64,000 bases of DNA from Cubamyces lactineus. Lineage: Eukaryota > Basidiomycota > Agaricomycetes > Polyporales > Polyporaceae. The notes below the pieces were generated by a model that made no database searches, had not been told where the DNA came from, and was given only the letters and a program-made list of their open reading frames with translations. Position numbers and translations under genes: made by a program. Positions 1,641 through 64,000 of this stretch are shown piece by piece. The DNA lies in NCBI GenBank assembly GCA_022376465.1, contig JACDTU010000024.1:310001-374000 (forward strand), in the 5' to 3' direction. How positions within the stretch are numbered: position 1 is the first letter of the stretch; every line of letters begins with the position of its first letter.

Positions 1641-2187
1641 GATGGCAAGATTGCGTGGGCGGGAGGGGCGACGACGAGAGCTGAACAGATGGGGAACACG
1701 TAGCTTGAGGACGGTGAGGTGGATGTTGGGCGAGGGGTGGTCGGGATGGGTTGCGCATGCAGAGTATATATGGCCTCCGTTCATATCAATAGACGATATG
1801 CTGATGGTATCTGTGCACGAGCTGGGATGCGGTGGTGCGACTGGAACTTGTTCTGGGCGTTGTAGATCCACCAATATGGCAAGTGACTCAAAGCAACCAA
1901 CCATAAACGGATGCGTCGACGTGTCGACGTGGCTGTGCCAGTTCGTACGCGGTCACGTGATGCCACAATCTGGGACGCTCATCAGAATCAGGACGACTGT
2001 TACCGCGGCGTCGGCGAGGGACGATATGTATATTGGATACCGGATTTCATGCCGTAGTACAACCTCTGACATTACTATCGCTTCTGGTGCACATGCATCA
2101 ACGCAAGACGCAACTGATATCCTCCAGGGGCAGTCCATTGTTGCAGATCATTCTGATTTACGAAATGTCGGCCGTACACGACAGTGA
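1641..2187. other. Intergenic region, gene 1 upstream / GMC 3' end
   Basis: I see no convincing gene. The stretch holds the TATATA (1765-1770) of the leftward gene and the 3' flank of the GMC oxidoreductase. Open frames here have no recognisable domain. Confidence 0.5.
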
Positions 2188-16000: not shown

Positions 16001-16916
16001 AAAGAAGGCGGTCGGCGCGCTCAAGCTACCCGTTGGCGGCTGTTTCATTCTTTCCGGCGTCCTCGTAGACCGTTCCTTCGTCTCACAGACTGAAGAGACG
16101 TTCGAGGCGCCATTCCCGGCCAAGGTTGACGCATTCAAGTTGGTTGAAGAAGTGCTCCCTGTCGAGGACCTGGACTTCCTCGTCGCCTTCTCGTCGGTTT
16201 CGGGCATGTTCGGGAACGCCGGCCAGACCAACTACGCAAGGTATGAGCCCCTTAGGGCGAAATGATTGCATCATGAATCTGACAACTGTCACTCGCAGTG
16301 CGAACACGTCCCTTGCAGGTCTGACCAAGAAGTATCGCAACGCTGTGTGCATAGTTGCGCCAGCGATCTTGGACACGTCGACCATCAAGGGAGAGCTCGC
16401 CGGGTCTTCTCCCGCTCTGCGCCTCAGACATCTGAGTAACTGGGGTATGACAAGCACAGGTATGCACATGAATGATTGTCCGATCTGAGGCCATCCTGAG
16501 CAATCTATCTGTCCCCAGAGTTCTTCACCCACGTCGAGGATGCGATTCGGTGCCTCGGCGGCCGCTCCGTCTGGCAGTACATCCCTGCCTTTGACTGGGC
16601 ACTGGTTCAATCGAACATGGGTGCCTCTCCGCTGTTCGATGACCTCGTGCCTGTTCAGGATGCAGACGCAGAAGAGGCATCAGCGGACAAGTCGTCCTCT
16701 AGTCTCAAGGACGTCGTGTGCAAGATCCTCGATGTTGCCTCGGAGGATCTGTCGCCGGACGTGCCGTTCACGTCTTACGGACTCGACTCTCTCTCGGCCG
16801 CAGCGTTGTCTTATGCTCTTCGTCCATTCCTTACTATCTCTCAGCTCCAGCTCCTAGCCGACCTCAGTCTCAAAGAACTGCAGGCTCGGATGGAGGCGTC
16901 AGATCAGGACTCTTAG
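10022..16916 (+). CDS. Reducing iterative type I polyketide synthase (KS-AT-DH-pseudoER-KR-ACP)
   Basis: A large multi-exon gene encodes about 2,000 residues. The start is MSSSSMPSPSPAEIAI (ATG 10022), spliced to VGIAAELPSG. KS: catalytic Cys in DTACSSS, His in LELHSTGTAMGDP, and VKGNIG|HLE. AT: FSGQGPQ, nucleophile in GHSAGE, later PVHSAMMD. DH: His in LAEHVIKNEP, but the usual PGAGY is STAGY; Asp in IHPAILDASLH. The DH end RFEVAYHKTGY is followed by a Ser/Pro linker. A degenerate MDR/ER-like region (about 15090-15700) has HSDTAVG in place of the NADPH-binding glycine motif. KR: GGIGSLG, Ser in AFSSVSG, Tyr in QTNYA. ACP: GLDSLS. The stop is TAG 16914-16916. No SAT, product-template, methyltransferase or thioesterase domain is visible. 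Expected activity is condensation of malonyl units with keto-reduction and dehydration, giving an unmethylated polyene-like acyl chain; release must be by another enzyme or spontaneous (inference). Confidence 0.93.
15085..15715 (+). other. Degenerate enoylreductase-like segment inside the PKS
   Basis: Between DH and KR, the chain has MDR-like hallmarks: PPDHVLVHVTGAAMGTDQLW, then LPAAIAPLAVGVAAFSRP, then VILVTHSDTAVGAKVAAIY leading to GAEVVVLPSQ. The order matches an ER fold, but the dinucleotide-binding glycine cluster is replaced by HSDTAVG. It is probably a non-functional ER or the KR structural half. This predicts that double bonds are kept. Confidence 0.6.
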
Positions 16917-45027: not shown

Positions 45028-46103
45028 TCATAGATTTACCCATTCGCCCCGCGTTCCTCGTCTCTTCGCTCGCGCAACCACGTGGCACAAGCGACAAAAC
45101 GTCATTCTCTGTGCCCCGCCTGCGCTCGCTGCTCCAGAGTCTTCTGTGTGGCGCACGAGGAAGCAGCTTGCAGGAAGTAAAAGCTCGCAGCTCGAACACG
45201 GGTATCCAGAGTTCTCGCTGTCGGCATCTTCCAAGAAGCCCATCGGTAGGAACCGCTTTAGGTCCATATCCTGGTGCTTCGCCAGCAGCCTCCTATTGGG
45301 GAACATGGCGACGTAGCGCTCCGACTTGGCTTTGAAGCTTTTGACCTTTTCGGGCTCCTTGTTCCACGGCTCTTGCATGAGGCGAGTGTATACTGCAGCG
45401 ATCAGGACGGCATCGTGCGCAGCATAGTCCAAGAGTCCTTGCGAGAGTGGGCGTCTCATCCAGATGTCGCTCCCTTGGGCCCGGTGCATTGCGACCACGA
45501 CCGCTGTCCCATTGTCAAGTTCTGGCCGCGCAACATCTCTGTTCAAAGCTCACGATCTTTCGCACCAGCAGCGTCTGCGAGTCCCAAGGTGCGCACGACG
45601 TGGGCTAGTCCGCCGAGGCGGTAGATGCCGTCGAACATGGCGGGCTTCGCTTGGATGTCTTGCTGTAGTGAGTTGAAATAGCCTCCCGGCCGTCTAAAGT
45701 CGTATAGTCGCATCGCGTCTGTTTGGCGCATGGAATGTTGACGTGATGCGACCTCGACCAGCTGCAGGTCGAGCACACCCGCGATGGATAGTCCGGGAAA
45801 GGCTTCGACGAGCTCGAGTACGTCGGCACGGCCGTCCCAGAAGACCTTGGTGATGCACGGGTCGGAGAAGAGGCGGTGCAGGGCGGTCAGGGAGGGATGT
45901 GCGGTGGAGATGAGTGCGAGAACGTCGATGAGATAGACGTGCGAGGCTAAAATATCGCTGAGGGTGAGGATGCTTAGGGCACCATCGGGCATGCCGATAT
46001 TGCGCCCTTCACAGTCGACGACGAGGACGGATGAAAGAGCCAGGGTAGAGGTGGCCGCGGCGAGGTCGTCGTAGGTGGTGCAGTACGTGACTTTAGGTGC
46101 CAT
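45028..46103 (-). CDS. 3'-5' exonuclease domain protein (RNase D/WRN-type), paralogue 1
   Basis: I choose ATG 46101-46103 (MAPKVTYCTTYDDLAAA) because the neighbouring paralogue starts the same way; an in-frame ATG at 46145 would add 14 residues. DEDD-type catalytic motifs are visible: LVVDCEGRNIG (motif I, D-x-E), VFWDGRADVLEL (motif II Asp) and LLDYAAHDAVLIA (motif III, Y-x3-D). One intron of about 50 nt (donor after AAAGATC, acceptor CAG) joins KD to VVVAMHRAQGSDIW. Beyond the exonuclease core, the C-terminus has two Cys pairs (YPCSSCELL...FCRLCHV), probably a zinc-binding knuckle. It ends WVNL. The length is about 350 residues. Such proteins trim RNA or DNA 3' ends; the substrate is unknown. 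Confidence 0.82.
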
Positions 46104-46296: not shown

Positions 46297-47376
46297 TTAC
46301 AGGTCAACCCAACCACCTTCCATCTCTCCATTACGTAGTGAAATCGCCTTGCACAGGCGACACAACGTTGACCTCTGTGATACAAATCGAGAGCGACCCT
46401 TCTTACTCTTCCTCTCCTCCACCCTCTTTGTGTAACAGCTGCCGACAAGGCGTTGTTCACACTTCTGACAGGGGTAACGAGCCCCTTGCTTTCCTCCGTC
46501 GCCGCAGGTGAACTCGAGCGGCACGAAGCGCCGTAAATCTGCTTGACTGAATCGAACGTTCTGCTCGCGAGAGCGGATCATGCTGACATATCCCGCAGAC
46601 TTTTGCTTGATCTGCTCGAGCGAGGAACGCACCCAAGCTTTGCGCATATAGTGGGCATAGACGAGCGCGATCATCTGGAGGTCGTGGGCGGCGTACTGGA
46701 GAAGGTTTGCCGGGAGGGGGCGGACGAGCCACATCGCGGAACCCTCGTTATGATGCATGGCGACTACCGCAGCTATAGGAAAGCGGGTGAGTATCTGAAG
46801 CCACATCTTCTCAGAGGTCTACTTACGATCTTTCAGCGTTCCTGCTTCCTTGCTGCACAGGCGGAACAAGCCCACGACCAGATCGAGGCCACGGACCCTG
46901 CAGATGCCGTCGTAGGCTGCAGGGTTCTCGCGCAGGTCGTCTTTAAGGGGCTGGAAGAACTTGGCGAGGTCCTTCATGCGCCGCTCCTGAGCCTCCGGGC
47001 GATCGTCGCGTGTGCGTGCTAGGACGTCGACGAGCTGCATGTCGAGCACGCCGGCGACCTTGGTCCCAAACACGAGCAGCAGCTCGAGCGCATCGGATCG
47101 GCCGTCCCAGAAGACTTTGGTGATGCGCGGGTCCGCGAGGAGGGAGAGAAGGGCAGCGAGGGCAGGGTGCGATGGCGATGTGAGGGAGAGTACGTCGATG
47201 AGGAAGATGTGCGCGGCTCCGATGTCGGAGATGCTGAGGAGGCTGAGGGTGCCACCTGGTCTGCCGAGGTCGTGGGCTTCGCAGTCGATGATGAGGGTGG
47301 TAAAGCGGGAGAGCGTGTCGTATGCCCGTTTCGCGTCATCGTAGGTAGCGCAATATGTGATGATAGCAGGGGCCAT
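46297..47376 (-). CDS. 3'-5' exonuclease domain protein, paralogue 2
   Basis: A tandem paralogue of the preceding gene, same strand and only 193 nt away. The start is MAPAIITYCATYDDAKRAYD (ATG 47374-47376). Motifs: LIIDCEAHDLG (D-x-E), VFWDGRSDALEL, LLQYAAHDLQMIA (Y-x3-D). The intron sits at the same place and phase as in paralogue 1 (...LKD|PAVVAMHHNEGSAMW). The C-terminal Cys pairs are conserved (YPCQKCEQRL...LCRLCKA), and both proteins end in W-V-[ND]-L. The shared intron position and termini show a local duplication. The middle segment differs (here ARTRDDRPEAQERRMK). Function is as for paralogue 1. Confidence 0.84.
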
Positions 47377-50802: not shown

Positions 50803-51118
50803 TGTAAAGATATGAAAATTTGTTGAGAAATTTGAAGAAATATTTGAGAGGGGAGTGCGATGAGTTGTTCGCCGCAACTTGTGCCTCTTCTTATAGTTGC
50901 GCAGGATCGTCTGCGCATTCTTGAGATGCTGTTCTGGCTCCCAAGAATTTTCCGATGCGGGCCAACCCTTCCAAGCCACGAGATACTGCTTTTGGGTACC
51001 TCTAGTATAGTGACTTAGGATCGCCTCTACCTCCCATTCCTCCCCTTCAGTCGACTCTGGGGTTGGAACTGGTGGAGGGCGGATGTAGTCTGGGCTGTGC
51101 TCCTTTGTTGTGTGGTAC
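50803..51118 (-). pseudogene. Element A pol, 3' part with chromodomain
   Basis: Downstream of element B's left edge, the frame continues Y-HTTKEHSPDYIRPPPVPTPE, then the chromodomain WEVEAILSHYTRGTQKQYLV AWKGWPASENSWEPEQHL and KKRHKL. The canonical WKGW and SWEP residues are present. Chromodomains at the integrase C-terminus direct chromovirus insertion to marked chromatin (family knowledge). Confidence 0.85.
51114..51118 (+). repeat. Target-site duplication of element B, left copy (GGTAC)
   Basis: GGTAC immediately precedes the TG of the left LTR, and an identical GGTAC follows the right LTR at 61677-61681. A 5-bp duplication is the Ty3/gypsy integrase signature and fixes the element's borders exactly. 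Confidence 0.95.
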
Positions 51119-51396
51119 TGTAAGGATTCCGTGCAACTAGCACGGATCCACACTGGAATGTGCCACGAGCACATTCCGACATTCCGAAGGGGATGGCGCT
51201 AATTGCGCCATCCGCGTAGATTACAAACACTTGTACTAGATCTATGCGAGCGTACGGCGCCCTAGACGTTCGGGGTCTGGGCGCCTGGTGGGTAAGTCTT
51301 TCTTACCCACCATCCTCACGAGTACGCCGAGCCCAATACGAGCCCGGTCCAGAGTACTTGAGGATAGGGTGTGGAAGACACCCGTGAGTTTTAACA
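51119..51396 (+). repeat. Element B 5' LTR
   Basis: 278 bp, TGTAAGGATTCC...GAGTTTTAACA, repeated at 61398-61676. It contains at least five perfect inverted repeats with 5-nt loops: 51129-51145, 51155-51177, 51191-51213, 51287-51311 and 51367-51383. I see no canonical tRNA primer-binding TGG within the first bases after it. Confidence 0.95.
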
Positions 51397-51499
51397 CTTT
51401 TTTACTCTCCCGAGTAGCGAACAACAAGCCCGAATTGGGCCCGACGTCACACGTCATCAAGAATCCCCCATTCCACCAACTCAACTTCTATCTCTAGAC

Positions 51500-52255
51500 A
51501 TGGCGTCTAGAGATTCTCCCACAGGAGAGGGGCAACCATCACGGTTGTCCCCGAAGACAACTCGTCCTCCTCTCGCACCTCTTGCCACGTCGGCATCAGG
51601 TCCGAGCAGGTCCACCCCCTCGCAATTAGCGGGGGGTTCTTCACCTTTCGAATTGCTGCAAGCTGGCAGCGCGACGACCTCCAAGAAACCTTCACCTCTC
51701 GCTAGCAGAGCAGCTAGCAAGAGCCGGCCAAGCAGCAGATCATCAAACCGTTCAAACGCGAACAGTGACCGAGGTAAGCGAAGGGCTACCTCGCCCCGAG
51801 CATACAGAACTCCACCCGAGACAGAAGAGCCCGCCGAGCAATTAGTTCGCGCGGGTAACAAGCAATCACCTAGGTCGGATCACGAAGGACGATTGCAACA
51901 AGCAATCGAGTCGGGACAAGTGTCTAGACGTCAGTCAGAGCAAGGCAGCCAAGCGCTGCAGAAAGCCGCGATAGCCGGCTTACTTCGAGATGCGCGAGCA
52001 CGATATAGCCAGCTCGCACAACAAGTGCAGCAGGCTGAAGAGCAATTCACAGCTCAAATAGAAGCTGTAATGGCTGCTACTGGGTTGTCCTTGGACTGGG
52101 AAGACGAGCGAGAAAACGACAAGTCGTCATTTCATGAGGATGACGCCATGTCCTCCAGAGACGAACAGCAGGTGGACGATCTAGTCCAACCTGAAGAAAA
52201 CGACCAGTCAGGCCCCGAAGAAGAAGGACCTCAACGATTCGTGAGTGGAGTGTAA
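51500..52255 (+). CDS. Element B ORF1: N-terminal gag-like protein
   Basis: ATG 51500 lies 104 nt past the 5' LTR. It encodes 251 residues: a Ser/Pro/Arg-rich N-terminus (MASRDSPTGEGQPSRLSPKT), a basic low-complexity part, then a helical segment (AGLLRDARARYSQLAQQVQQ AEEQFTAQIEAVMAATGL) likely to form a coiled coil, and an acidic end. It stops at TAA 52253-52255. The next ORF continues in the same frame after only 30 nt, so this may be the front part of gag cut by a stop, or a separately made protein. Confidence 0.7.
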   Translation: MASRDSPTGEGQPSRLSPKTTRPPLAPLATSASGPSRSTPSQLAGGSSPFELLQAGSATTSKKPSPLASRAASKSRPSSRSSNRSNANSDRGKRRATSPRAYRTPPETEEPAEQLVRAGNKQSPRSDHEGRLQQAIESGQVSRRQSEQGSQALQKAAIAGLLRDARARYSQLAQQVQQAEEQFTAQIEAVMAATGLSLDWEDERENDKSSFHEDDAMSSRDEQQVDDLVQPEENDQSGPEEEGPQRFVSGV

Positions 52256-52285
52256 GAAGCTCTCCACCGTCTTGATGCAGGACGA

Positions 52286-54574
52286 ATGCATCGTCTGCGA
52301 AGTGCCGGATTGGCGGAAGAGGAGCACTTCATTAGTACTCCTCAAACAAGCCCGTCGTATCATTCGGCCAGTGCCCAATTTGGACGCACCGAGGAGCAAC
52401 GAGCCCCTCGGCGTAGTGTCGCGTTCGATGGGCTTGGTCCAAGTTCGATGCCGTCCGTTGAGGATTCGCTGGTTGCGGATCCCCAGCCTTCAGCATCGAG
52501 AGGTCCGGCATATAGGCAGACGGCGTGGACTTTGCCATTATCGGGACCGAGTGCCTGGGGTCCTCGTAGGACCTCGATGGCACCTACTATCACAGCGCCT
52601 ATCTCGGGTTCACGCGAACCACGAGAAGACTTAGCCTACGTTGGCCCCATAGCCAACGTACGCGATGGTATAGGAGTCCAAAGGCTCCTTACCATGATAG
52701 ATGAACAAGTGGGAAGTGATCCCACCGACGAGCCGCCTGCGTATTTGAAGCTGGCTAAATTGCCAGCTCCACCGCAATTCGAAGGCAAGGACGACGCCGA
52801 CAAGTTCGAGGTCTGGCTTCAAAGCCTACTCGAATATTTCAGTACCCTGCGCCTAACTGGCAAAGGGTTCGATAAGGATCGTCTGCGACTAGCAGGCAAT
52901 AGCCTAGGTGGCAACGCAGCCACCTGGTTCTACAACACCATCAAGTCCCCGACGCGCGAGAAGACGCACTGGACGTTCGAAGAAGCCATAGTAGGCTTAT
53001 ATCGACGGTTCATTCACCGCGATATGCATTTGGTAGCAGAGCAGCAATTCGCTGCTCTGAAATACGACTCCACTAAGGGTGGAGTCGCAGCTCTTTACGA
53101 ACAGATGCGCTTCCACGCCGACAAGATGTGGGAGAAGCCTACCGACTTCCAGATGCGCAAGAAACTGCTCGAAACATTACCCTACCAATTCGAGCAAACC
53201 CTCACTATATACAAAGGGCTATCTGCCCAGTATAACACATTCTGGGAGATTTACCAGGCCGCGCTCGAATATGAGCAAAGCCTCCGAATTCTGCAAAGCC
53301 GCCGAAACTCGCGTGAAACATCGGGTACACAGGCTAGTACCTCTAGTTCAGGCAAAGCATCACGAGACGCTAAGTCTGGACGATCGCATGGAACATCACA
53401 TCGTCAGCAACAACGAACCACTGCAAATAGCAGTGGCAAACCGGGATGGTCCTATCATAGACCATCCGACAATCGAAATTACCGTGCACCTCAAGCGAGT
53501 GCTTCAGGTACACGGCCCACTTCATCCACTAATGTACCCCGCAATGAGCGCGGTACGGGTCCGGTGAAGTGCTTCGCATGTGGCCAAATAGGCCATTACG
53601 CAAGTGATCCAACCTGTCCGAAGTATGGGAAGCAAAATACTTCCCATAACGCGAGGATGTTCGCGCAGCAAGTAGTGCCCGAACCTCCAGCGGACGAAGA
53701 AGAGCCGGTTCCACTAGAACCTGCTGAAGTCCCTTCTAAGGAGGAAGCGGAAGAGGAACATCCCTTTTCCGAAACAATCCCTGAACCCGAAGCGGATTAC
53801 CCCGAATCCGAATTCGGAGGTAATGGATCTCAATACGAATCGGATCGAGAAGACTTACCCTCGCCGATATTCGAAGAAGAGATCGAATTCAATGGCATGC
53901 GCGTAGCAGCAATAAAAGAGATCGAAACTGATCTCTTGCGAGCCCATGCGATGGCCGTTCAACCAGAACGGAACATCCGGCATGGGTGGCTATACGATGC
54001 TAAGGTCCGAAGGTTGACAAGGCCTGAAGACCAACCGAAGCGTAATGAGTACGCACAGCGCACACTATGTGCTGAGATACCCATCAATGGTATCAAAGCT
54101 CTGGCGTTATTCGATTCGGGTTGCACAACCGACTCGATGACACACGAGATGGCGTATCTGTGCAGAGCAGATCGCATCGACCTGAATGAACCCGTTGGGC
54201 TCCAACTAGGAACCAAGGGAAGTAGAACGCGCATCAATTTCGGTGCGCGTGCTACGGTACAGGTCGGCCCAGTCAAGGCTGACCACTACTTCGATGTAGT
54301 AGACATCGACAAATACGATGTCATCTTGGGTACCATGTTCTGTCGAGAGCACAAAGTAGTGCTCAACTTTGGCAACGACACGGTAACGGTAAAGGGACAA
54401 TCGATTAGATTGTTCGACCCGGCCGAGTACGAAACGCGAAGACGACGTCAGGAAAATGACGTCGCAAAAGGAATTGCACAAAGCAATATCCCGCCACCTA
54501 AGGCTAATCGGCCTATGGTGGACAAGGGAAAGAATACAACCCAGTATTCTACGCCCACAGCATCCGCAAAGTAG
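52286..54574 (+). CDS. gag: Element B gag-protease
   Basis: 762 codons, with the first in-frame ATG at 52286. The retrotransposon gag core lies at roughly residues 130-340 (FEVWLQSLLEYFSTLRLTGK, NAATWFYNTIKSP, FIHRDMHLVAEQQFAALKYD, RKKLLETLPYQFEQTLTIYK). A zinc knuckle CFACGQIGHYASDPTC follows; its spacing is C-X2-C-X4-H-X6-C, two residues longer than the usual X4. After an acidic stretch comes an aspartic protease-like domain with active site ALALFDSGCTTDSM and later DKYDVILGTMF. It ends at TAG 54572-54574, and pol follows in the same frame. Confidence 0.9.
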   Translation: MHRLRSAGLAEEEHFISTPQTSPSYHSASAQFGRTEEQRAPRRSVAFDGLGPSSMPSVEDSLVADPQPSASRGPAYRQTAWTLPLSGPSAWGPRRTSMAPTITAPISGSREPREDLAYVGPIANVRDGIGVQRLLTMIDEQVGSDPTDEPPAYLKLAKLPAPPQFEGKDDADKFEVWLQSLLEYFSTLRLTGKGFDKDRLRLAGNSLGGNAATWFYNTIKSPTREKTHWTFEEAIVGLYRRFIHRDMHLVAEQQFAALKYDSTKGGVAALYEQMRFHADKMWEKPTDFQMRKKLLETLPYQFEQTLTIYKGLSAQYNTFWEIYQAALEYEQSLRILQSRRNSRETSGTQASTSSSGKASRDAKSGRSHGTSHRQQQRTTANSSGKPGWSYHRPSDNRNYRAPQASASGTRPTSSTNVPRNERGTGPVKCFACGQIGHYASDPTCPKYGKQNTSHNARMFAQQVVPEPPADEEEPVPLEPAEVPSKEEAEEEHPFSETIPEPEADYPESEFGGNGSQYESDREDLPSPIFEEEIEFNGMRVAAIKEIETDLLRAHAMAVQPERNIRHGWLYDAKVRRLTRPEDQPKRNEYAQRTLCAEIPINGIKALALFDSGCTTDSMTHEMAYLCRADRIDLNEPVGLQLGTKGSRTRINFGARATVQVGPVKADHYFDVVDIDKYDVILGTMFCREHKVVLNFGNDTVTVKGQSIRLFDPAEYETRRRRQENDVAKGIAQSNIPPPKANRPMVDKGKNTTQYSTPTASAK

Positions 54575-54637
54575 AGGAGCGTGGTGCATTCCACGAAAGT
54601 GGAACCCTCCCGAACGCACCGCGCGACAAGCGACTTA

Positions 54638-57600
54638 ATGTCGTCAGGAGGGGGAGGGGACGGCAACTCAGCCGTTAAGATTCCTGTACGACATCAAGGT
54701 CGGGCCAAAACAGACTCAGCCCCAAATATCAATGAAAGATTTGTGCCAACTAGGCACTCATCTACGGAACCCAGAAGAGACCGATGGGGTCAAGAAGATC
54801 CCTACGGAATGAACGAGATGCTTGATCGGATTGCAAAAGAGCAATGGGAAGATGAGATAATACGACGAAGCCACGTTGGCTTCGTCATAGACGAAAAAGA
54901 GGAGGAGCTAATCAAGCTCCGCGAAAAGTGGTATGCGAAGACGGAGGACATCATGCGTCCTCCGCCAGATGAATTACCTCCTTATAGGGAGATAAATCAT
55001 CGCATTCCACTCATCGACGAACAGAAGAAGTACCGCTATCACCTACCTCGGTGTGCGGAAGTAGTCAAGCCCGCACTGATCGAGAAGATCAGGCGGTACG
55101 TTAAGGCAGGATGGTGGCGACATGCCACTGTGGAGCAAGCAGCTCCCCTGCTATGCGTAGCCAAGAAAGACGGCAAATTACGGACAGTTGTTGACGCACG
55201 TCAGCGTAACAACAATACGGTCCACGACCTCACGCCATTTCCGGACCAGGATCTGATCCGGATGGATGTCGCTCGAGCTAAGTATCGCTCGAAGATCGAC
55301 TTATCCGATGCGTATGAACAAATACGCATAATAGCTGAGGACGTGTGGAAGACAGCGTTTGCCACTCCTTGTGGCACGTTTGTGAGCGAGGTCATGCAAC
55401 AGGGTGACACGAACGCTCCATCAACGTTCCAACGCCTGATGACTTCCTTGTTCTGGGATTGCATTGGACGATTTGTCCATGTATATCTCGACGATATCTT
55501 TGTGTATTCGGACTCCATCGAGGAACACGAAAAGCACCTGGAGATCGTCTTCGAGAAGCTACGCAAAGCGCAGCTGTATTTAAGCCGCAAAAAATGCGAC
55601 TTATTCTCGAAGGACATGGACTGTCTCGGTCATCGAATAGATGATCGGGGACTTCACGCCGATATGGACAAGATGAGCAGAATCCGCAATTGGAGGACTC
55701 CTCGTTCGTACCAGGAAGTGCAACGCTTCCTGGGTCTAGTCAACTACCTCGCACACTTCATGCCTGATGTAACGGCGTACACCACGCCATTATCGGGTAT
55801 GATTAGGAACGACAGACCTTTCGTCTGGCGCGCATTGCACGACAAGTGCTTTGAGTCGATCAAAGCCTTGGCTTGCAAAGTTCCCATTCTCAAGCCGATC
55901 GACCCCAACAGGAATGAGCCTATTTGGCTCATTTGCGACGCTTCCGTATATGGGCTCGGTGCCCTATACGGCCAAGGACCTAACTGGCAAACCTGTCGTC
56001 CTGCTGGACTTCTATCTAAGAAGTTCACGAGTGCGCAACGAGCGTACCCCACTTATGAGCAGGAAGCTCTAGCAATTCTCGAAGGATTGATGAAGTGGGA
56101 GGACAAACTACTAGGACGACATGTCCACGTAGTAACAGACCACAAGGCCTTGGAATTCTTGCAAGGGATACCTCGGCCCAACAGCCGACAAATCCGGTGG
56201 TACGAGTTTTTAGCTCGTTTCCAGTACGACATCACGTACATCCCGGGCAAGTTGAACAAAGTAGCTGACTGCTTGTCACGCTACTATGAGAACGACAACT
56301 TCGATGAACCCGTCAACGAGTGGGACTACGTCAACGCAGACGTACGTCTTGATCCGAATGGGGATTTTCTTCCCTTTTCGCGAATGATCGAGTTGAAGGC
56401 TAGTCGTATTTTGCGACGATCTGCAAGGCTAGCGGAGAAGCAAGAAGCTTCTCTTGCTGCAAAAGCCAAACTTCCAGAAGTTGTCGAAGATCGCGTTCAG
56501 GAAGCCCAACAGCTTTCTGTAGCCCGTCCACAAACAGTGAACGAGGCTCCGAAGAAGGACGAAGATCCTACAGTAGGAGAACTCCTATCATCAGGACCTC
56601 CACTCAAGATTCGAGTGGAATCACAAGATGGATTCCATAACGCTATCCGAAAGGGATACGTTATGGACACGATGTTCAAGAAAATCGTCGAGGATCCGTC
56701 TCAGCACAAGGCCTTCACCATGCGTGAAGGTCTTCTCTACACTCAGAACCATAGCGGTAGCGAGGTACTATGTGTACCTCGCGTACTACTCAAGGCTAGG
56801 ATGCTGCCCGAGCTAGTTATCGACCGTGCTCACGGCACGCTTGGTCATCTCGGGCCTCAACGCACGTCTGACTACGTTAGGCGATGGTTCTGGTGGCCTA
56901 GCCTACGCAAGGACGTAGATAAATTCTGCACATCTTGCGGCACTTGTCAGACCATTAAGGCGAGCAATCAGCTCCCTATGGGTCTCTTACATAGTTTACC
57001 AATTCCACGAATGCCGTGGAATTCGATTTCGATGGATTTTGTGGGTCCTTTCCCGCCGTCGCACGGACACGATTATGTGTGGGTGATCGTCTGTCGATTA
57101 ACTTCACTGGTACACTTAGTACCTATCAATACTACTACTACCGCGGCCGAGTTGGCCATGGTCTATCTACGAGAAGTAGTGCGACTGCATGGACTGCCCG
57201 AGACTATTGTGTCTGACAGGGACAGCAAGTTCACGTCCAAATTTTGGCGCGAACTGCACCGGTTGATGGGGGCTAAATTGCTCATGTCGACCGCTTTTCA
57301 CCCACAGACAGATGGACTTAGCGAGCGAACTATTCGTTCGGTCACGCAAATTCTGAGAGCCATGGTAGCTCCGGACCAGAAAGACTGGTACGATAAGCTA
57401 CCCCTAGCCGAATTCGCCTTGAATTCAGCTACAAACGCATCTACTGGGTTTGCTCCATTCGAGTTGACCTACGGCTACTTGCCGAAGTCAATGAGTGGTA
57501 TCTCCACAGATACGCACTATCCCGGAGTGAAGGAGTACGCGCAACGAGCGCGTACTTATCTCGAGCAAGCACACGACGCATTGATCGATGCGCGAGTGTC

Positions 57601-58114
57601 GCAAACGTTCCACGCGAACAAACGAAGACGGCACGAGCCCGACTTCGAGGTGGGGGACAAGGTATACTTGTCCACCAAGAATTTAGCAATGCCGAAAGGA
57701 CGAGCAAGAAAGCTCGTTCCCAAGTATATAGGCCCCTACACGATAATAGGAGCCTTCCCGGAGTCGTCCAACTACTTGTTGGACTTACCCGCTGAATTGA
57801 AGGAACGTCGGATACATCCGAAATTCCATGTGTCGCTACTAAGGCGACACGAGCCGAACGATGATGACTTGTTCCCTGGTCGAGAAGCACAGGCCTACTA
57901 TGATGTAGGTCTAGACGACGAGCAAGAGTGGCTCGTCGACGAGATTATTGGACACGAGTGGGACGGCAAACGATGCCGTTTCCACGTACGATGGACGCTT
58001 GGTGACCATACATGGGAGCCATACGAGCATTGCAAAGAGCTCGTTGCTCTTGACAATTACTGTAACTTGATGGGGGTGAAGTCATGGCGGCAATTGCCTA
58101 GGCACAAGAGCTAG
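54638..58114 (+). CDS. pol: Element B pol: reverse transcriptase, RNase H, integrase, chromodomain
   Basis: The frame is open from 54575, directly after the gag amber stop, to TAG 58112-58114. The first ATG is 54638, so it is probably made as a gag-pol readthrough product or by reinitiation. RT: FATPCGTFVSEVMQQGDTNA PSTFQRL and the catalytic VYLDDIFVYS. RNase H: LICDAS, EQEALAILEG, VTDHKALEFL. Integrase: zinc motif HGTLGH...FCTSCGTC, DDE residues in SMDFVGPFP, VSDRDSKFTSKFW and HPQTDGLSERTIRSV. Module KYIGPYTII...RIHPKFHVSLLR precedes a chromodomain (EWLVDEIIGHEWDGKRCRFH VRWTLGDHTWEPYEHC). All catalytic residues are present with no frameshift, so this copy may be active. Confidence 0.93.
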   Translation: MSSGGGGDGNSAVKIPVRHQGRAKTDSAPNINERFVPTRHSSTEPRRDRWGQEDPYGMNEMLDRIAKEQWEDEIIRRSHVGFVIDEKEEELIKLREKWYAKTEDIMRPPPDELPPYREINHRIPLIDEQKKYRYHLPRCAEVVKPALIEKIRRYVKAGWWRHATVEQAAPLLCVAKKDGKLRTVVDARQRNNNTVHDLTPFPDQDLIRMDVARAKYRSKIDLSDAYEQIRIIAEDVWKTAFATPCGTFVSEVMQQGDTNAPSTFQRLMTSLFWDCIGRFVHVYLDDIFVYSDSIEEHEKHLEIVFEKLRKAQLYLSRKKCDLFSKDMDCLGHRIDDRGLHADMDKMSRIRNWRTPRSYQEVQRFLGLVNYLAHFMPDVTAYTTPLSGMIRNDRPFVWRALHDKCFESIKALACKVPILKPIDPNRNEPIWLICDASVYGLGALYGQGPNWQTCRPAGLLSKKFTSAQRAYPTYEQEALAILEGLMKWEDKLLGRHVHVVTDHKALEFLQGIPRPNSRQIRWYEFLARFQYDITYIPGKLNKVADCLSRYYENDNFDEPVNEWDYVNADVRLDPNGDFLPFSRMIELKASRILRRSARLAEKQEASLAAKAKLPEVVEDRVQEAQQLSVARPQTVNEAPKKDEDPTVGELLSSGPPLKIRVESQDGFHNAIRKGYVMDTMFKKIVEDPSQHKAFTMREGLLYTQNHSGSEVLCVPRVLLKARMLPELVIDRAHGTLGHLGPQRTSDYVRRWFWWPSLRKDVDKFCTSCGTCQTIKASNQLPMGLLHSLPIPRMPWNSISMDFVGPFPPSHGHDYVWVIVCRLTSLVHLVPINTTTTAAELAMVYLREVVRLHGLPETIVSDRDSKFTSKFWRELHRLMGAKLLMSTAFHPQTDGLSERTIRSVTQILRAMVAPDQKDWYDKLPLAEFALNSATNASTGFAPFELTYGYLPKSMSGISTDTHYPGVKEYAQRARTYLEQAHDALIDARVSQTFHANKRRRHEPDFEVGDKVYLSTKNLAMPKGRARKLVPKYIGPYTIIGAFPESSNYLLDLPAELKERRIHPKFHVSLLRRHEPNDDDLFPGREAQAYYDVGLDDEQEWLVDEIIGHEWDGKRCRFHVRWTLGDHTWEPYEHCKELVALDNYCNLMGVKSWRQLPRHKS

Positions 58115-58362
58115 TTGCTCTTGTGCCCTACCACTACTAGTCGTAGTGGGAGGCAAAGCCGAAGAAGCCAAGTCTTCGAAATGGTGATGTCCACCATTTC
58201 AATAAGCGCCGGATACGATCACGAGACGAGAGGACGCGACGCGTTACGCGTTAGCGCTGAATCTGGAGATTCAAACTCCACCAGCGCCAAACAGCGAGGA
58301 CACGCGTTTTCGCTAAGTCTCCGTCTCTCGTGCCAGCCCTTCGCCAGCACTACACCACCACC

Positions 58363-60861
58363 ATGTCCAGCAACCAGCAACACCGTTCACCTCGCGGGCG
58401 ACGACACTCGTCGCCGCCACTACCACCACCACTACCGTATGGGACTCCAGGGGGCGAAGACGTCATGGAACAAGACCCGGGGCATTCGCTAGTTGCGGAT
58501 GCCCCCCAGCTGCCGCCCAGCTACTTTGCTGGGCCACAGCCTTTGCCGATGTCGGAACGACCGACACGATACGATCAGCCACCTCCCCCAGGATACAACT
58601 CGTATCCTGGACAAGGAGTCCACCCTCAACGTCAAGCTGCGCTGCCACACGCAGCGTACTTTGGTCAAGGGTCGTCCACTCAGACGGCCCACTTCCCTCA
58701 ACTACCAACCGTGCCTGCGGGATCAAGTATGCCCCTGGGTATGCCTCCGCTAATGCCAATCCCGGGCATTCCCAACCTCATGTGGGAGGAGATCCCCGAC
58801 TACCCTTTGCTAGTCGCGCACCGGGAAGGCTGTGCTTGTTGCATGGACTTCCTGCGGCACTATGCCGCCGCGACGAACGAAATGTCGTTCAGAGACGCAC
58901 TCACGCGAGTCCAAACAGACTTGCAGAGGCGTTTCTGGGCGCATTTCGAGCAACACGCTCGGTCCTCAGGGGGAGGGGAGCGGGAACGAGAGCTCGAACG
59001 AGAACACGAGCGCGACGTCGGAAGGATCCGCGAGCTGCAACGAGCAGTTCGTGAATATGAAGAATTAGAACGAGCGAACGCCAGGCTGCGTGAAGAGCGG
59101 GATTGGCTCCAAGACGAGCTACGCGACGTCCGTTCAGACAATGAACGGCTTCGCGGTGAGCGCAATCGCATCCGCGAGACATTACAAAATTTATACCGCG
59201 AGCGCAATCAGCCTCGCGGCCCATATCAGACTCCAAGTTCCAATCCCGACCATCGTCATCGAGACCCACGCGAGGTCAGTCCACGACGACCAGCTCAGTC
59301 TCGAACCACCACAACGAGTGGTGTGCCTACGAGTCAAGCCACGACTGAGGCGGGGCCGTCGAGAAGAAGGTCGCCACCTCCGCAACGAGCGGAGGCGCAG
59401 CATACAGGACGAACAGCCTCGGCTGCTGGGTCTCACCGATCCAGTCAGCCGGAGGCCGCGATATCCCAGTCCAAAGGCAAGCAGCCTGTGGGCCGTGACG
59501 ACTTCGACAATTTGTCGGAATTGTCGTCAGACAGCGACGGCAATCCTGTCGACCGCGACAAGATCCAGAAGGCCATCATACGATCTCGTATGAGACGGGC
59601 GCGCACTGGTCGACCACCACCTGAGGTGGGACCAATGCCGTCCGAAGACCGACCAGCGATCCCTGGTTGGCCTTACGACCTTATGGCGCCCCCAGTCGAC
59701 ACGGATCCGCGGTTAGCCAGCAATTGGACGTCATACGTTCCAATAACCGCGTTGGAGGGCAATACGCTCATGCAGGCGGCCCGTGAGGGAAGTGGAGAGG
59801 CTCGTCATCGGTTGACGGATCTCCTACGCCAACTCACGGAGCGTCCAGAGATGAACGGAGTAGAAGGTCTGCATGTTTGCCAGATGAGCTGGCGCAATCA
59901 CAACAAGGATCGCGTCGCTTCCACCTCTACTGCCGTCAGCACCCGCGATCAGCGAGGCAACACGCCTCCTGATCTGGAGCATGCCTCCATCGACCATCTA
60001 CCGCGCCCATTGGGACGTGGACACCACCCCGGCAAGACGTCAAAGTCGAAAGGCAAGCCGAAAGGGCCGAGCATGCCTAACCACTCGGACGCCCCCGAGA
60101 TTTGGAGGCAATGGTATGTTGCCAATCCGGCACATACTCCTCGGTGGATGCTGGTGGATCGGGCAAATAGCCCGTCCGACACCAGCGTGGAATACCACCT
60201 CCTTGTTCGGCGCACACTTGGCCAAGGGGTGAGCATCCAGGACCGAGCAGTATGGATTCGCTTATCGCACGTCCTATTCTCGGTACCTGGCATGTATAAC
60301 TATATAGTCGCTAATGGCGGCTATCCTGTGCGCAATCACGTCGAGACCGTGCGTTACCCCGGCCCCGTAGCCGAGGTCAACATCTTCCGCCTTGCTTGGT
60401 GGTATGCCTACTGTGGCATTACCGTCCAGCAAGCCAATGCACTACAGCCCTTAGCTGTACGTGCACGCAACGAGCGCATTGGACGAATGTTGGACGAGCC
60501 CGCGCCGTTCAACGACGACGAGTACAACTCCATGGATGAGTTACCACTCATTCCTACGTCGCAGGACCTTGGCATGGAGCACCTCATCACGGGTGCTCCT
60601 CCTGTTCCCGTCATCGCTCCTACCACGGCTAACGCCGAACCCGTTGTGGTACGAGCTCCTGACGCTCCCGGCATGCCCGCCGCGCCTGTGCCTCACAACA
60701 CTAGTGACGGCAACGTACCTGCGCCCACGGTCACCATCGACAACCCGGTGGTCGACGAAGACCATGAGATGGCCGACCAAAGTGCGGTCGTACCACAGGA
60801 GGACGAAGGCATCCAATCGACGCCGCACCCGTCGCCGCTCAATACCCCGCCGTCGGCGTAG
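58363..60861 (+). CDS. Element B ORF3: extra protein downstream of pol, function unknown
   Basis: An intact ORF of 832 residues from the ATG at 58363 (MSSNQQHRSPRGRRHSS); an in-frame ATG at 58330 would add 11. It starts 250 nt after pol. The N-terminus is Pro/Gln/Tyr-rich. About residue 155 has a Cys-containing motif (HREGCACCMDFLRHYAAATN). Residues about 205-290 are a long charged coiled coil (ELEREHERDVGRIREL...NERLRGERNRIRETL). A basic, Ser-rich region (GPSRRRSPPPQ, KSKGKPKGPS) follows. A folded-looking C-terminal domain comes next (APEIWRQWYVANPAHTPRWM, VWIRLSHVLFSVPGMYNYIV, VNIFRLAWWYAYCGITVQQA). The acidic tail ends at TAG 60859-60861. There is no signal peptide or TM helix, so it is not a typical envelope protein. 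It may be a nucleic-acid-binding or second capsid-like protein (inference). Confidence 0.8.
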   Translation: MSSNQQHRSPRGRRHSSPPLPPPLPYGTPGGEDVMEQDPGHSLVADAPQLPPSYFAGPQPLPMSERPTRYDQPPPPGYNSYPGQGVHPQRQAALPHAAYFGQGSSTQTAHFPQLPTVPAGSSMPLGMPPLMPIPGIPNLMWEEIPDYPLLVAHREGCACCMDFLRHYAAATNEMSFRDALTRVQTDLQRRFWAHFEQHARSSGGGERERELEREHERDVGRIRELQRAVREYEELERANARLREERDWLQDELRDVRSDNERLRGERNRIRETLQNLYRERNQPRGPYQTPSSNPDHRHRDPREVSPRRPAQSRTTTTSGVPTSQATTEAGPSRRRSPPPQRAEAQHTGRTASAAGSHRSSQPEAAISQSKGKQPVGRDDFDNLSELSSDSDGNPVDRDKIQKAIIRSRMRRARTGRPPPEVGPMPSEDRPAIPGWPYDLMAPPVDTDPRLASNWTSYVPITALEGNTLMQAAREGSGEARHRLTDLLRQLTERPEMNGVEGLHVCQMSWRNHNKDRVASTSTAVSTRDQRGNTPPDLEHASIDHLPRPLGRGHHPGKTSKSKGKPKGPSMPNHSDAPEIWRQWYVANPAHTPRWMLVDRANSPSDTSVEYHLLVRRTLGQGVSIQDRAVWIRLSHVLFSVPGMYNYIVANGGYPVRNHVETVRYPGPVAEVNIFRLAWWYAYCGITVQQANALQPLAVRARNERIGRMLDEPAPFNDDEYNSMDELPLIPTSQDLGMEHLITGAPPVPVIAPTTANAEPVVVRAPDAPGMPAAPVPHNTSDGNVPAPTVTIDNPVVDEDHEMADQSAVVPQEDEGIQSTPHPSPLNTPPSA

Positions 60862-60956
60862 ACGTACTCGAGCACCGTGCGCTACTTCATACTTGTATGA
60901 TATTGCATCCCCGCGCGCGAGCTCCCCACTCGCGCGCGTCGAGAACTACGGGGAAA

Positions 60957-61344
60957 GCTCGTCGCTTCGATTCGCGACGAGCACAAGGGCACTCAGTGAT
61001 CGTCACACTGAGTGTCATCGCCTCATGACGATATAGCTGCTTCGATTCGCAGCCTTTCAATTATACACCCTCCGAGTTGCAACTAGCAACTCTATGGGAT
61101 AGTAAGACTCACCATCCTACTATTCCTTCTCTACTACAAGGTGAAAAGGGACGCTTCGTTTCGCGTCCCCAATGGATACTATTCCACGCTCACTTGGCGT
61201 GTAAACTCAAGTGACAAGCAGCTTCGATTCGCTGCATATTGTATATAATCGCGCTATCGCGCGTTTGACTCATATTACCACCGTTCCTGGCCTCGCCTAG
61301 CCATGAACGCAGTCAACAGGCGTATTGCCGCTTTGATTCGCGGC
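60957..61344 (+). repeat. Five same-loop hairpins in element B 3' UTR
   Basis: Five stem-loops share the loop TTCGATTC or a one-base variant, while the stems differ and compensate: GCTCGTCGC/GCGACGAGC (60957-60982), GCTGC/GCAGC (61036-61053), GGGACGC/GCGTCCC with loop TTCGTTTC (61148-61169), GCAGC/GCTGC (61218-61235), and GCCGC/GCGGC with loop TTTGATTC (61327-61344). Other hairpins lie between them (60912-60938; 60991-61013; GAGTTGC/GCAACTC 61074-61092). The fixed loop and changing paired arms point to a structure recognised as RNA or single-stranded DNA. Confidence 0.8.
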
Positions 61345-61385
61345 TGTAAATATTCACTTTATATTCGAGACCCGTACACGAGTCT

Positions 61386-61397
61386 GAAGGGGGAGAG
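61386..61397 (+). other. Element B polypurine tract
   Basis: GAAGGGGGAGAG ends exactly where the 3' LTR starts, the standard primer for plus-strand DNA synthesis. Confidence 0.85.
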
Positions 61398-61676
61398 TGT
61401 AAGGATTCCGTGCAACTAGCACGGGATCCACACTGGAATGTGCCACGAGCACATTCCGACATTCCGAAGGGGATGGCGCTAATCGCGCCATCCGCGTAGA
61501 TTACAAACACTTGTACTAGATCTATGCGAGCGTACGGCGCCCTAGACGTTCGGGGTCTGGGTGCCTGGTGGGTAAGTCTTTCTTACCCACCATCCTCACG
61601 AGTACGCCGAGCCCAATACGAGCCCGGTCCAGAGTACTTGAGGATAGGGTGTGGAAGACACCCGTGAGTTTTAACA
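61398..61676 (+). repeat. Element B 3' LTR
   Basis: 279 bp, near-identical to 51119-51396. The differences noted are one extra G (CACGGGATCC versus CACGGATCC), TAATC versus TAATT in a hairpin loop, and GGTGCC versus GGCGCC. Confidence 0.95.
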
Positions 61677-61681
61677 GGTAC
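61677..61681 (+). repeat. Target-site duplication of element B, right copy (GGTAC)
   Basis: Directly follows the 3' LTR and matches 51114-51118. Confidence 0.95.
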
Positions 61682-64000
61682 AGAGTGAGTAGCACTGTGT
61701 GGAAGACAGGGTGTATCTTCCATGTCTCCAGAAGTTCTAATTTGAATGTGACCGGTCCCAAGACCTTGACGATTGTGAATGGTCCCACTTGTTTTGGAAT
61801 TAACTTCCTGGAGGCATATGGGAGCCTGAGGTTCTTTGTGTCGAGAAGAACCTTGTCTTCTTGCTTCAGCGGTACTCGAGCAGCAGGGAGCCTTTTTGAC
61901 ATTGCTGTGGCCGCTTGAGCATGCACAGTGATTGTATTCTCCCTGGCTTCTTGAAGACTTTGAAGCCTCTGCTCTGTACTTGGATGCTTTGGGGTTGTTC
62001 TGACTGTCCCAACGGCCTCTGGCTGAAATCCGTAGAGGAGTTCAAAAGGGGATTTTCCTGTGACAGAGTGTGTCCTCTGATTATGCGCAAATTTGAATTG
62101 AGGCAGCAGTTTGGCCTAGGTATCCGGATTGTTAGCACAGTAGAGTCAAAGTGCTAAGTCAAGTTCTTGATTGACTTGTTCCATTTCCCCATCTATTTGC
62201 TGTTGTGTTATTCTTTGAATGCCTTGGAGATGAATTGTGGTCCTCAATCCGAAATAACCCTTGCGGGTAATCCAAACCTGCAATATACATCTCTTTGCAG
62301 AATATCCATGGCTCCTTCAGCCATAATATTCTCTGTGCAGGGAGAGAATACCGCTGCCTTGGATACATCATGATTGACTACCACTTGGATGGCATTGAAC
62401 CCATCCAACTCTGGTAGATCGGTGATATAATCCATGGTGATCGTCCGGAAAGGCCTAGTATCCCCACTGTGTTGTATAGGAATTAAACCTGGTTTGAGGG
62501 AATGTGTATTGACCTTGCATGTTTGACAAGCTGCGCAACCCTTGACATATTGCGTGATGAATTTTTGCATGCTGGGCCACATATATTCCCGTTTAACCAA
62601 GTTGTAAGTCTTCTGGACTCCTGGGTGTGCCATAATCAGCGCATCATGATACAACTTGACTATATCATGGTACAACTGATTATCTGGTGGAACGTATACT
62701 CTGTTCTTGTACAGAAGTATTCCATCATTGTCAGACCAATCTTCTGGTTTGCCAAACTCCGGGCATTTGGTAGCCTTTCCTTTTAGAGTAATGTACCCCA
62801 CTACTGAGGTATCCCGTAGTTTGCTATCCCTAATGCGCTCTTGAAGCTCAACATTAATAGCCTTAACAAACAATTCTGATCCCAGAACAACGACATCCTT
62901 GTTGTCATTTTCCCCCCATCATGCCCTGATCTCCGAGAAAGGGCGTCTGCTTGAGTGAGGGATTTTCCAGGTTGATGCTTGATTGCAATGTTGAATTCCG
63001 AGAGGAATAAATGCCATCGAGCTTGTCTACGATTTAACTTCTGCGCTGTATGGAAATATGTCAGATTTTTGTGATCTGAGAGAATTTCCACAGGATGAGG
63101 GAATCCCTGTAGAAAATGTCGCCATGCTTCGAGAGCTCGAACAATGGCTAGCAATTCTCTATCATAAATCTGATAGTTCCGCTCCGCAGGAGTGAAAGAT
63201 TTGGACAAATAGGCACATGGATGCCATCATCCATCTTCCCCTTGCTGTCGTAGTACAGCGCCTGTTGCGACCTTAGATGCATCGCACTCTATTTGAAACG
63301 GTTTATCCGGATCCGGGATTTGTAGGATCGGTTCTTCTGTAAACCGTTTCTTGAGTGTCTCGAATGCTTCTTGACAATCTTGAGACCACACAAAGGGCTT
63401 GTCCTTCTTCGTTAATTCCGTGAGGGGTCGAACTATCTTGGAATAATCCCGAATGAATCGTTGGTAAAAATTCCCGAACCCTAAGAATGCTTGGACTTGT
63501 TTGACCGTCTTTGGTGGCTCCCATTCAACAATTGCCTTGAGTTTAATGGGATCCATAGCGACTACTCCTGGCCGGATGATTGATCCTAAGAATTCGACTT
63601 CTTGCCTATTGAATTCACATTTTTCCGCCTTGAGGAATAAATCGCTGTCTTGGAGCCGTTGTAAGGCTCTCCTTGTCCTTTCGTGATGTTCTTCGACGTT
63701 GTTCGAGAATATTAGGATGTCATCCATGTAAATGACCATCCATCCTTCCTGGAGCATATCTCGAAAGATGTCGTTCATCATGTTTTGGAATGTTGCTGGT
63801 GCGTTGCACAATCCAAAAAACATGACCGTTGGTTCAAACAATCCACTTGGTGTAATAAACGTAGCTTTCCACTCATCACCCTCCTTGATGCGAACATTAT
63901 TGTATCCTGCTCGCACATCAAGTTTGGTGAATATTGTGGCCCCCTTCAGCCGGTCAATAATGTCACTAATGAGCGGCAAAGGGTATGTGTTTTTCACTGT
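61677..64000 (-). pseudogene. Element A pol, 5' part (RT, RNase H, integrase), decayed and cut by window edge
   Basis: Minus strand. RT: TKLDVRAGYNNVRIKEGDEW, LFEPTVMFFGLCNAPATFQN and active site VIYMDDILIFS (near 63740). RNase H: QIECDASKVATGAVL, then after a TGA (near 63227) [20 protein letters not shown] and [12 protein letters not shown]. Integrase: AHPGVQKTYNLVKREYMWPS, VKGCAACQTCK, TITMDYITDLPELDG and RVISD followed by TGA where GPQF normally follows an Arg. The core Glu region is deleted. The C-terminal module (RKLIPKQVGPFTIVKVLGPV, WKIHPVFHTVLL) leads into the B insertion point. It is not functional. Confidence 0.88.

Follow-up and report, generated by a model that had tools for sequence, protein, structure and literature searches.

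A Ty3/gypsy-type LTR retrotransposon of Cubamyces lactineus saturated with short perfect hairpins

RNA genomes with GORS carry several hundred consecutive stem-loops along their coding sequence, and it is the property that is conserved, not the positions or pairings, according to the available part of PMC7642675. The folding excess reported in that part is 15% for SARS-CoV-2 and 7.5-10.7% for HCV, with a maximum of 23.4%, all for 350-nt windows and a different shuffling procedure from the one used here. Dispersed packaging signals, described for MS2, picornaviruses and the HBV pregenome, consist of many stem-loops that differ from one another yet keep to one recognition motif (PMC6281560, in the portion available). 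The RNAs of Ty3 and Ty1 contain stable structured regions and dimerisation palindromes and are mosaics, up to 30% of which is stably structured, as far as the available text of PMC11381356 describes them. Template-switch mutations, as treated in the accessible sections of PMC8794818, create, correct and maintain RNA hairpins; they are presented there in the context of DNA replication, and the examples are rRNAs and microRNAs.

Element B of the fungus Cubamyces lactineus and a relative in the same genome, element D, resemble GORS genomes in having a folding-energy excess along the coding sequence (just 8% in ORF3 of D) and in sharing the trait without sharing its positions. Unlike the GORS viruses, B is an LTR retrotransposon, with short hairpins that are Watson-Crick-perfect, a peak at 5-nt loops and a loop grammar. 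The excess of 20-36% in B and the viral maximum of 23.4% in the available part of PMC7642675 are not strictly comparable, because windows and shuffling differ; by the measure used here, B ranks with the most structured RNA viruses. B is also like the dispersed packaging signals in having a shared loop motif on variable stems, a motif that D lacks, but it has two loop classes (5 nt in the body, 8 nt in the 3'UTR), and its stem-loops are putative protein-binding sites. With Ty3 and Ty1 the Ty3/gypsy-type B has a structured RNA in common, although the available text on those elements gives no case of saturation by short perfect hairpins. Its close, perfect reverse-complement arms and candidate multi-base compensatory changes are like the products of template switching, whereas saturation of one mobile element is not among the cases in the accessible sections of that source. 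A search of the open literature for retrotransposons rich in hairpins, palindromes or ordered structure found no report of this kind. In RNA viruses both genome-wide ordered structure and dispersed packaging signals are familiar; within the scope of that search, B would be the first LTR retrotransposon with a structure of the GORS type and a putative loop code.

Structure of the element

The window, which is the whole stretch of 64,000 nucleotides that was analysed, contains element B at positions 51119-61676 (C17:361119-371676 of a 36-Mb genome in 43 contigs). B is a Ty3/gypsy-type LTR retrotransposon flanked on both sides by the 5-bp TSD GGTAC, and its LTRs are 98.9% identical to each other. 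Comparison of the window with itself revealed only this LTR pair and one 72% repeat, and nothing that could be recognised as the element A of an earlier note. The domain order across gag and pol, which are in the same frame with one TAG between them, is PR-RT-RNaseH-IN by Pfam. Matches to RT, RNase H, the integrase zinc finger and a Tf2-1-like SH3 domain in pol score above the curated cut-offs; those to the capsid (21.7 against 29.1), zinc knuckle, protease and integrase core (30.9 against 32.6) score under them. The bases 3' of the 5' LTR (CTTTTTTACTC) have no initial TGG, and the ATG at 51500 is inside the loop of a hairpin at 51490-51514. The features are as follows.

51119..51396, + strand: 5' LTR, 278 nt, TG...CA ends; hairpins with a 5-nt loop at 51128, 51155, 51191, 51286 and 51367
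51397..52255, + strand: leader and N-terminal gag-like frame; 12 non-overlapping hairpins (arms of at least 5, loops 3-8)
52256..54574, + strand: gag, with Ty3-capsid-like, CCHC zinc knuckle and aspartyl protease domains (Pfam, all below curated cut-offs)
54575..58114, + strand: pol, with RT, RNase H, integrase zinc finger and core, and Tf2-1-like SH3 (Pfam)
58101..58127, + strand: 11-bp hairpin that covers the pol stop, as an earlier note on this DNA had stated; the stop (58112-58114) sits in its 5-nt loop, and the hairpin falls in a 29-nt gap of the copy on contig C12
58261..60861, + strand: ORF3, 866 aa, under protein-level constraint; hairpins mostly in its first half
60862..61397, + strand: 3'UTR, mostly a chain of hairpins; five 8-nt loops at 60966, 61041, 61155, 61223 and 61332
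61386..61397, + strand: purine-rich GAAGGGGGAGAG adjoining the 3' LTR, a probable polypurine tract, so named from its position
61398..61676, + strand: 3' LTR, 279 nt, TG...CA ends, carrying the same five hairpins as the 5' LTR

No Pfam family was found above cut-off in ORF3, and no homologue of it at E 0.001 among 7986 scored candidates; Rfam had no match in positions 51000-61800 of the window. Among the pol matches listed, the nearest named proteins belong to Trametes (T. sanguinea, 79%; T. pubescens, 74%); five matches that include these two span 64-79% pol identity.

The genome contains two more near-identical copies of B (on C6 and C21, 99.8%) and a broken copy on C12 (81% nucleotide identity). 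D, on C15, has open frames, 58% pol identity to B and LTRs of 190 nt that are 100% identical. Viral contigs yielded no confirmed relatives.

Hairpin excess and RNA folding

Twelve distinct hairpins with arms of 9-11 bp around a 5-nt loop had been reported in the earlier note, and all are present in B, at 51155, 51191, 51286, 51490, 53037, 53065, 56760, 57001, 57534, 58101, 58178 and 58588. Three of these repeat in the 3' LTR, giving 15 in total, and none of this size is found in the 51,118 bases 5' of B. B holds 29 hairpins with arms of at least 7 at loop 5, or 26 if a single LTR is counted, versus 2 in the same 51,118 bases and 0 in the 2.3 kb downstream. Perfect 8-bp arms at loop 5 occur 17 times; 20 dinucleotide shuffles average 0.05. 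When 30 synonymous-codon shuffles of each ORF were used as the reference (arms of at least 6, loops 4-8), gag had 23 hairpins versus 3.3 (maximum 7), pol 29 versus 3.6 (maximum 7) and ORF3 15 versus 3.8 (maximum 8). The excess over dinucleotide shuffles is present in the LTR, leader, gag, pol, ORF3 and 3'UTR of B and in gag, pol and ORF3 of D, and codon shuffles concur in all six ORFs; the density is thus higher than in shuffles or neighbouring sequence, the comparison on which the earlier note had staked its claim.

The earlier note had stressed loops of exactly 5 nt. The peak does lie there, but the enrichment extends to 6, 7 and 8 nt: with arms of at least 6 there are 40, 16, 14 and 11 hairpins at loops 5, 6, 7 and 8, and 1 to 7 each at loops 3, 4 and 9-12, where about 2 are expected. 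Hairpins do occur in the LTRs, gag, pol, ORF3 and UTR, as had been claimed, but not every few tens of bases throughout, since their density varies along the element (18 per kb in the LTR and 5.8 per kb in ORF3), with none of arm at least 6 and loop 3-9 between 59526 and 60443; their spacing shows no regularity (CV 1.04). In the cluster offered earlier as an example, the hairpin at 54864-54886 pairs over 10 bp around a loop of 3 nt.

Mean fold z values in 150-nt windows against dinucleotide shuffles were -3.32 for B (102 windows), -2.18 for D (109) and -2.45 for the C12 copy (62); those of three controls were -0.10, -0.73 and -0.28 (99 windows each). The 3'UTR of B reached -7.48. Relative to codon shuffles (200-nt windows for B), the folding-energy excess was 36% in gag, 30% in pol and 20% in ORF3 of B, 21%, 20% and 8% in the same frames of D, and 0.7-5.5% in five control ORFs. 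The antisense strand gave z values of -2.97 for B and -1.70 for D, and a control had a similar strand difference; since the antisense folds nearly as well, folding does not mark the strand.

In D, hairpins with arms of at least 7 and loops 4-8 number 12 in gag, 12 in pol and 7 in ORF3, versus codon-shuffle means of 1.5, 0.8 and 1.6. When the 31 pol hairpins of B are placed on D by codon alignment, one (57410) has every pair intact and three fall in gaps; the hairpin property is common to B and D, and the positions are not. Elements at 44-48% identity (L018-L023) and families at 33-41% (L024-L028) have no clear loop-5 peak, L020 having a weak excess at most (8 hairpins of arm at least 7, loops 3-8, in 10 kb), and no hairpin peak was found in a decayed fragment on C7 (L006, L017) with 71% pol identity. 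Other gypsy families sampled in the genome, one of them multi-copy, have little of the trait. Judged from these comparisons, hairpin saturation is restricted to the B/D lineage within the genome as sampled.

Loop grammar and the evolution of stems

On the sense strand, loops of B (n = 507) contain A 197, G 83 and T 112 times, versus null values of 133, 129 and 103, an A excess matched in 0 of 2000 null draws. In D (n = 308) the counts are 96, 65 and 52 versus 73, 86 and 55 (p 0.001 for A). Loops of both elements are A-rich and G-poor on the sense strand, and T is not raised. The B pentaloops with arms of at least 6 have a closing C-G pair (28 of 41), A at position 2 (28 of 41) and T or G at position 4 (32 of 41), a grammar of C[NANKN]G; C-G closes five of the seven pentaloops from the LTR, the start of gag and the 3'UTR. 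D pentaloops have no consensus. The earlier note had called the arms mutually unrelated, and they do lack a common sequence, but it missed the grammar by which the loops are related. Around the pentaloop motif C-N-A-N-N-N-G both strands show raised pairing (at the first stem position, 0.43 and 0.44), which suggested a purely strand-symmetric DNA motif; this was dropped, because the loops are A-biased but not T-biased.

A second loop class is found in the 3'UTR, where five hairpins, all in sense orientation, share the 8-nt loop TT[CT]G[AT]TTC on unrelated perfect stems (GCTCGTCGC, GCTGC, GGGACGC, GCAGC and GCCGC). A sixth match, in gag at 54110, is without a stem. Four of the five hairpins are traceable in the relatives L037, L040 and L050, with loops TTCTAGTC, CTCTATTC, TTCTATTT or TTATATTC. 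Base 4 of the loop is T in 7/7 fully covered relative instances versus G in 5/5 in B, a count that leaves out the partly covered L040 at 61223; the fifth hairpin (61148) has different loops in the two relatives that align there, both with G as the fourth base. The relatives are dead copies; strict stems are kept in four of the seven instances (11, 6, 5 and 5 bp), and the other three are broken or nearly so. The loop word seems to have changed jointly on separate hairpins while the stems persisted. Such a joint change could be what a change of reader produces; the instances are few, and homogenisation is a possible alternative.

T-loop and Pol III B-box motifs have a G-C closing pair. A tRNA T-loop or B-box reading of TTCGATTC was rejected, because its closing pair is C-G and the relatives have TTATATTC or CTCTATTC; ARAGORN found no tRNA, and Rfam no family.

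Stems in the 3'UTR are better conserved than their flanks between B and L037 (81 vs 63% identity, p 6e-5) and between B and L050 (57 vs 38%, p 5e-4), as are those of the leader in three relatives (86 vs 69%, p 2e-9); LTR stems are not above their flanks in six relatives (74 vs 78%). Across 11 LTRs, 92% of cells in three tested helices are paired, and none of 500 shuffles or of the slid versions attains either the number of paired cells or the covariation score; the shuffle control ignores relatedness. A-U/C-G and U-A/G-C exchanges occur in helix 1, where the row of L036 is non-homologous and adds noise. The number of LTR pairs changed on both sides is not unusual, being reached by 147 of 500 shuffles; the covariation score of four 3'UTRs is reached by 14 of 500.

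Between B and the C12 copy (hairpins with arms of at least 7 or a 5-nt loop), ten of 13 doubly changed pairs are still Watson-Crick, nine of the ten by paired transitions. Paired transitions between these two copies are partly imitable by decay. Single changes from B to C12 gave 18 G:U, 18 A:C and 19 others, and the comparison of D with its decayed relative E (on C8) gave 64 unchanged pairs, 4 compensated, 8 G:U, 7 A:C, 4 other and 17 in gaps. Likewise, single mismatches inside near-perfect arms are G:T and A:C in numbers of 13 and 12 in B, 7 and 7 in D, and 16 and 16 in a 141-kb control, and single changes in the 3'UTR are 4 G:U vs 4 A:C and 6 vs 6. G:U is favoured only in the leader (16 vs 3, arms of at least 6) and the LTR (27 vs 15), where the rows are not independent. 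As G:U is no better tolerated, the stems are either copied perfect or required to be Watson-Crick, and the scarcity of G:U is the strongest objection to plain selection on RNA.

Among the three near-identical B copies, 4 of 23 differences (C6) and 1 of 24 (C21) are in stems, which make up 13% of bases; there is no clear avoidance of stems, all the changes are single, and no multi-base reverse-complement copy event was found. The LTRs L035 and L037 have a hairpin with arms TGAGTA or TGAGTAC (6 bp with a 7-nt loop; 7 bp with a 5-nt loop), the 3' arm of which differs from L038-L040 by several clustered changes, as judged by eye without a statistical test. A neighbouring LTR hairpin of B differs from L038, also by eye, in the length of its 5' arm and in two adjacent changes.

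The idea that the hairpins are inserted mobile units was discarded, since only one clean presence/absence case, of 29 nt, was found between B and C12. One insertion-associated site in pol, at 56435-56458, has two overlapping hairpins.

The fit of the hairpins with coding was examined in an alignment of pol with members of less than 1400 aa among the best 120 of 577 homologues. Mean residue typicality of the less typical arm is 0.458 versus a null of 0.433 +- 0.043 (27 hairpins, arms of at least 6, loops 5-8), and damage to the protein on one arm, as from copying, was not seen in these 27 hairpins. Codon registers are used 18, 13 and 5 times (n = 36), the register that pairs two wobble bases being the rarest (5/36). 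The typical residues and the rarity of this register indicate that stems are mainly built where the protein leaves freedom. Third-position divergence is 0.25 in pol arms vs 0.40, and ORF3 shows little difference; the lower value in pol arms can result from the choice of hairpins that are intact in B and is not taken as proof.

Possible origin and role of the hairpins

The comparisons made here establish, at the level of sequence, the hairpin excess, its lineage restriction, the sense loop bias, the conservation of stems in the leader and 3'UTR, compensation, and the grammar of B. They suggest that the RNA of B folds into many small stem-loops that are recognised by something in the life cycle. 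The reading preferred here, to which about an even chance is given, is a selected, genome-wide stem-loop RNA structure with a probable role in Gag assembly, in which template switching by the RT helps to produce the stems and make them perfect. Under this proposed mechanism the whole sense transcript would be kept folded into short, mostly perfect stem-loops in close succession. The loops may be read by an RNA-binding protein encoded by the element, most likely Gag, which has a CCHC zinc knuckle, and the many scattered sites would tag the genomic RNA and compact it for assembly into particles. New stems would come from intramolecular template switching by the reverse transcriptase that the element encodes, which would also perfect them, and selection would retain those harmless to the proteins, such that single hairpins turn over while the property and, in the B family, the loop grammar persist. 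Because template switching makes perfect copies and G:U is not preferred, stems made by the RT and selection for RNA structure are both taken to be at work, in shares that are inseparable here. A packaging role of Gag is opposed by the finding, in the available text of PMC4974528, that nt 429-4979 of Ty3 are dispensable in cis. A stronger version is offered tentatively, as somewhat improbable: that in one lineage the entire RNA may be a dispersed stem-loop code, made up of about 80 short perfect hairpins whose loop word is particular to the lineage and read by its own Gag, the words shifting with the reader and the stems being re-made and perfected by the RT.

The interpretation in the earlier note, with its three possible causes (selection for a structured genomic RNA, recognition sites and template-switch correction), is supported in part. 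The structured genomic RNA is best supported, by the folding excess of B and D, the sense loop bias, the stem conservation in leader and 3'UTR, and covariation. Recognition sites agree with the loop grammar and the 3'UTR loop family of B but not with D, which has no loop consensus. Template-switch correction may contribute, as it accords with near-perfect stems without G:U preference and one LTR hairpin with clustered changes, but by itself it leaves the shared loops and the stem conservation unexplained.

Mutation pressure alone, in which the nascent strand folds back during reverse transcription, copies 7-11 nt of itself and returns, without selection, is an unlikely account, although the one that survives best among the alternatives. 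It agrees with the near-perfect stems lacking G:U preference, the nearly equal folding of both strands, the differing hairpin positions of B and D, and the clustered changes in the L035/L037 hairpin and the neighbouring hairpin of B; template switching with one-step compensatory changes is known for DNA replication, in the sections of PMC8794818 that are accessible. By itself, however, it predicts neither one loop on five unrelated stems nor a joint change of a loop letter, and neither sense A-rich loops nor stems conserved above flanks in the 3'UTR and leader. Moreover, pol arms are no less family-typical on one side, and the three near-identical B copies have single changes only.

The main functional rival to recognition by Gag is generic shielding from host silencing, an idea already put forward for GORS viruses, in which dense stems would hide the transcript from small-RNA silencing or nucleases and recognition of loops would not be needed. 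High folding excess with poorly conserved positions, as found in B and D, is the description of GORS itself in the available part of PMC7642675; but the loop grammar and the 3'UTR loop family of B go beyond what shielding requires, and other gypsy families of the genome, one of them multi-copy, show little of the trait. Shielding is considered slightly less probable than mutation pressure alone.

The hairpins may instead act as single-stranded DNA (cDNA) or as cruciforms, for instance where integrase or another DNA-binding protein attaches or where RT transfers strands. In keeping with this, the stems are purely Watson-Crick, with no preference for G:U, and pairing around C-N-A-N-N-N-G is elevated on the two strands alike, yet an excess of A without one of T in the loops points to one strand, changes in the leader and LTR favour G:U over A:C, and the arms have no common sequence, making this improbable. 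Chance or composition, by which biased words would give such hairpins, has next to no probability, as shuffles, sampled host sequence and other sampled retroelements all fall short of the degree reached in B.

If selection for a folded, loop-read RNA is real, B would offer a fungal system with a strong signal in which to ask if Gag assembly depends for its direction on scattered stem-loops that have a loop in common. It would also allow an origin of perfect stems by template switching to be weighed against one by stepwise selection. For annotation there is a warning: the coding sequence of such elements would have a second, strong layer of constraint.

Coding frames of B and its copies

The hairpin-rich Ty3/gypsy-type LTR retrotransposon B occupies positions 51119-61676 of the window and is laid out as follows.

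51119-51396, 5' LTR
51397-52255, leader and N-terminal gag-like frame
52256-54574, gag
54575-58114, pol
58261-60861, ORF3

The gag and pol of B share one frame and are separated by one stop (54572-54574), which is TAG in all three B copies. In D (L013/L014), a relative in the same genome with open frames and 58% pol identity, gag and pol likewise lie in one frame with one TAA between them, and a single in-frame TGA is the only separation between pol and ORF3. The occurrence of single in-frame stops between the frames of B and D suggests stop-codon readthrough or re-initiation.

The window copy of B has a further in-frame stop within the gag region (52253-52255), so this copy alone is probably unable to produce full Gag. 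The matching site is open in the two further near-identical copies, on contigs C6 and C21. The C21 copy (C21:263827-284437 of the host genome, G000) has its ORF3 interrupted by approximately 20 kb of other sequence.

Hairpins and the sequence following the 5' LTR

Among the hairpins of B with loops of 5 nucleotides, arms of 7, 9 and 11 bp (13, 9 and 2 hairpins, respectively) are far commoner than arms of 8 and 10 bp (one hairpin each), a pattern noticed post hoc and not present in D. A 10-bp hairpin (51490-51514), whose loop contains the probable first ATG of gag, is identical in the related locus L036 and nearly kept in two others, L041 and L049. A hairpin block of 29 nucleotides (58100-58128) is whole in B and absent from the C12 copy (L015/L016), which is broken and has 81% nucleotide identity. 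The first bases after the 5' LTR (from 51397 onward), CTTTTTTACTC, are kept in L036 and L041, and do not resemble a typical tRNA primer site.

Sequence outside B

In the host flank, frames with acyltransferase and ketoreductase domains were noted at 12249-16262, and therefore this is probably a polyketide synthase gene. A direct repeat of about 285 bases (45742-46026 and 47015-47296; 72% identical) also lies outside B.

ORF3

No homologue of the 866-residue ORF3 product of B was found at an E value of 0.001 among the scored candidates from a large protein set. The short motif HRxGCAxC is common to ORF3 of B and ORF3 of D. Between B and the C12 copy, ORF3 divergence at codon positions 1, 2 and 3 is 0.148, 0.130 and 0.301, respectively; by this comparison, ORF3 of B is constrained.
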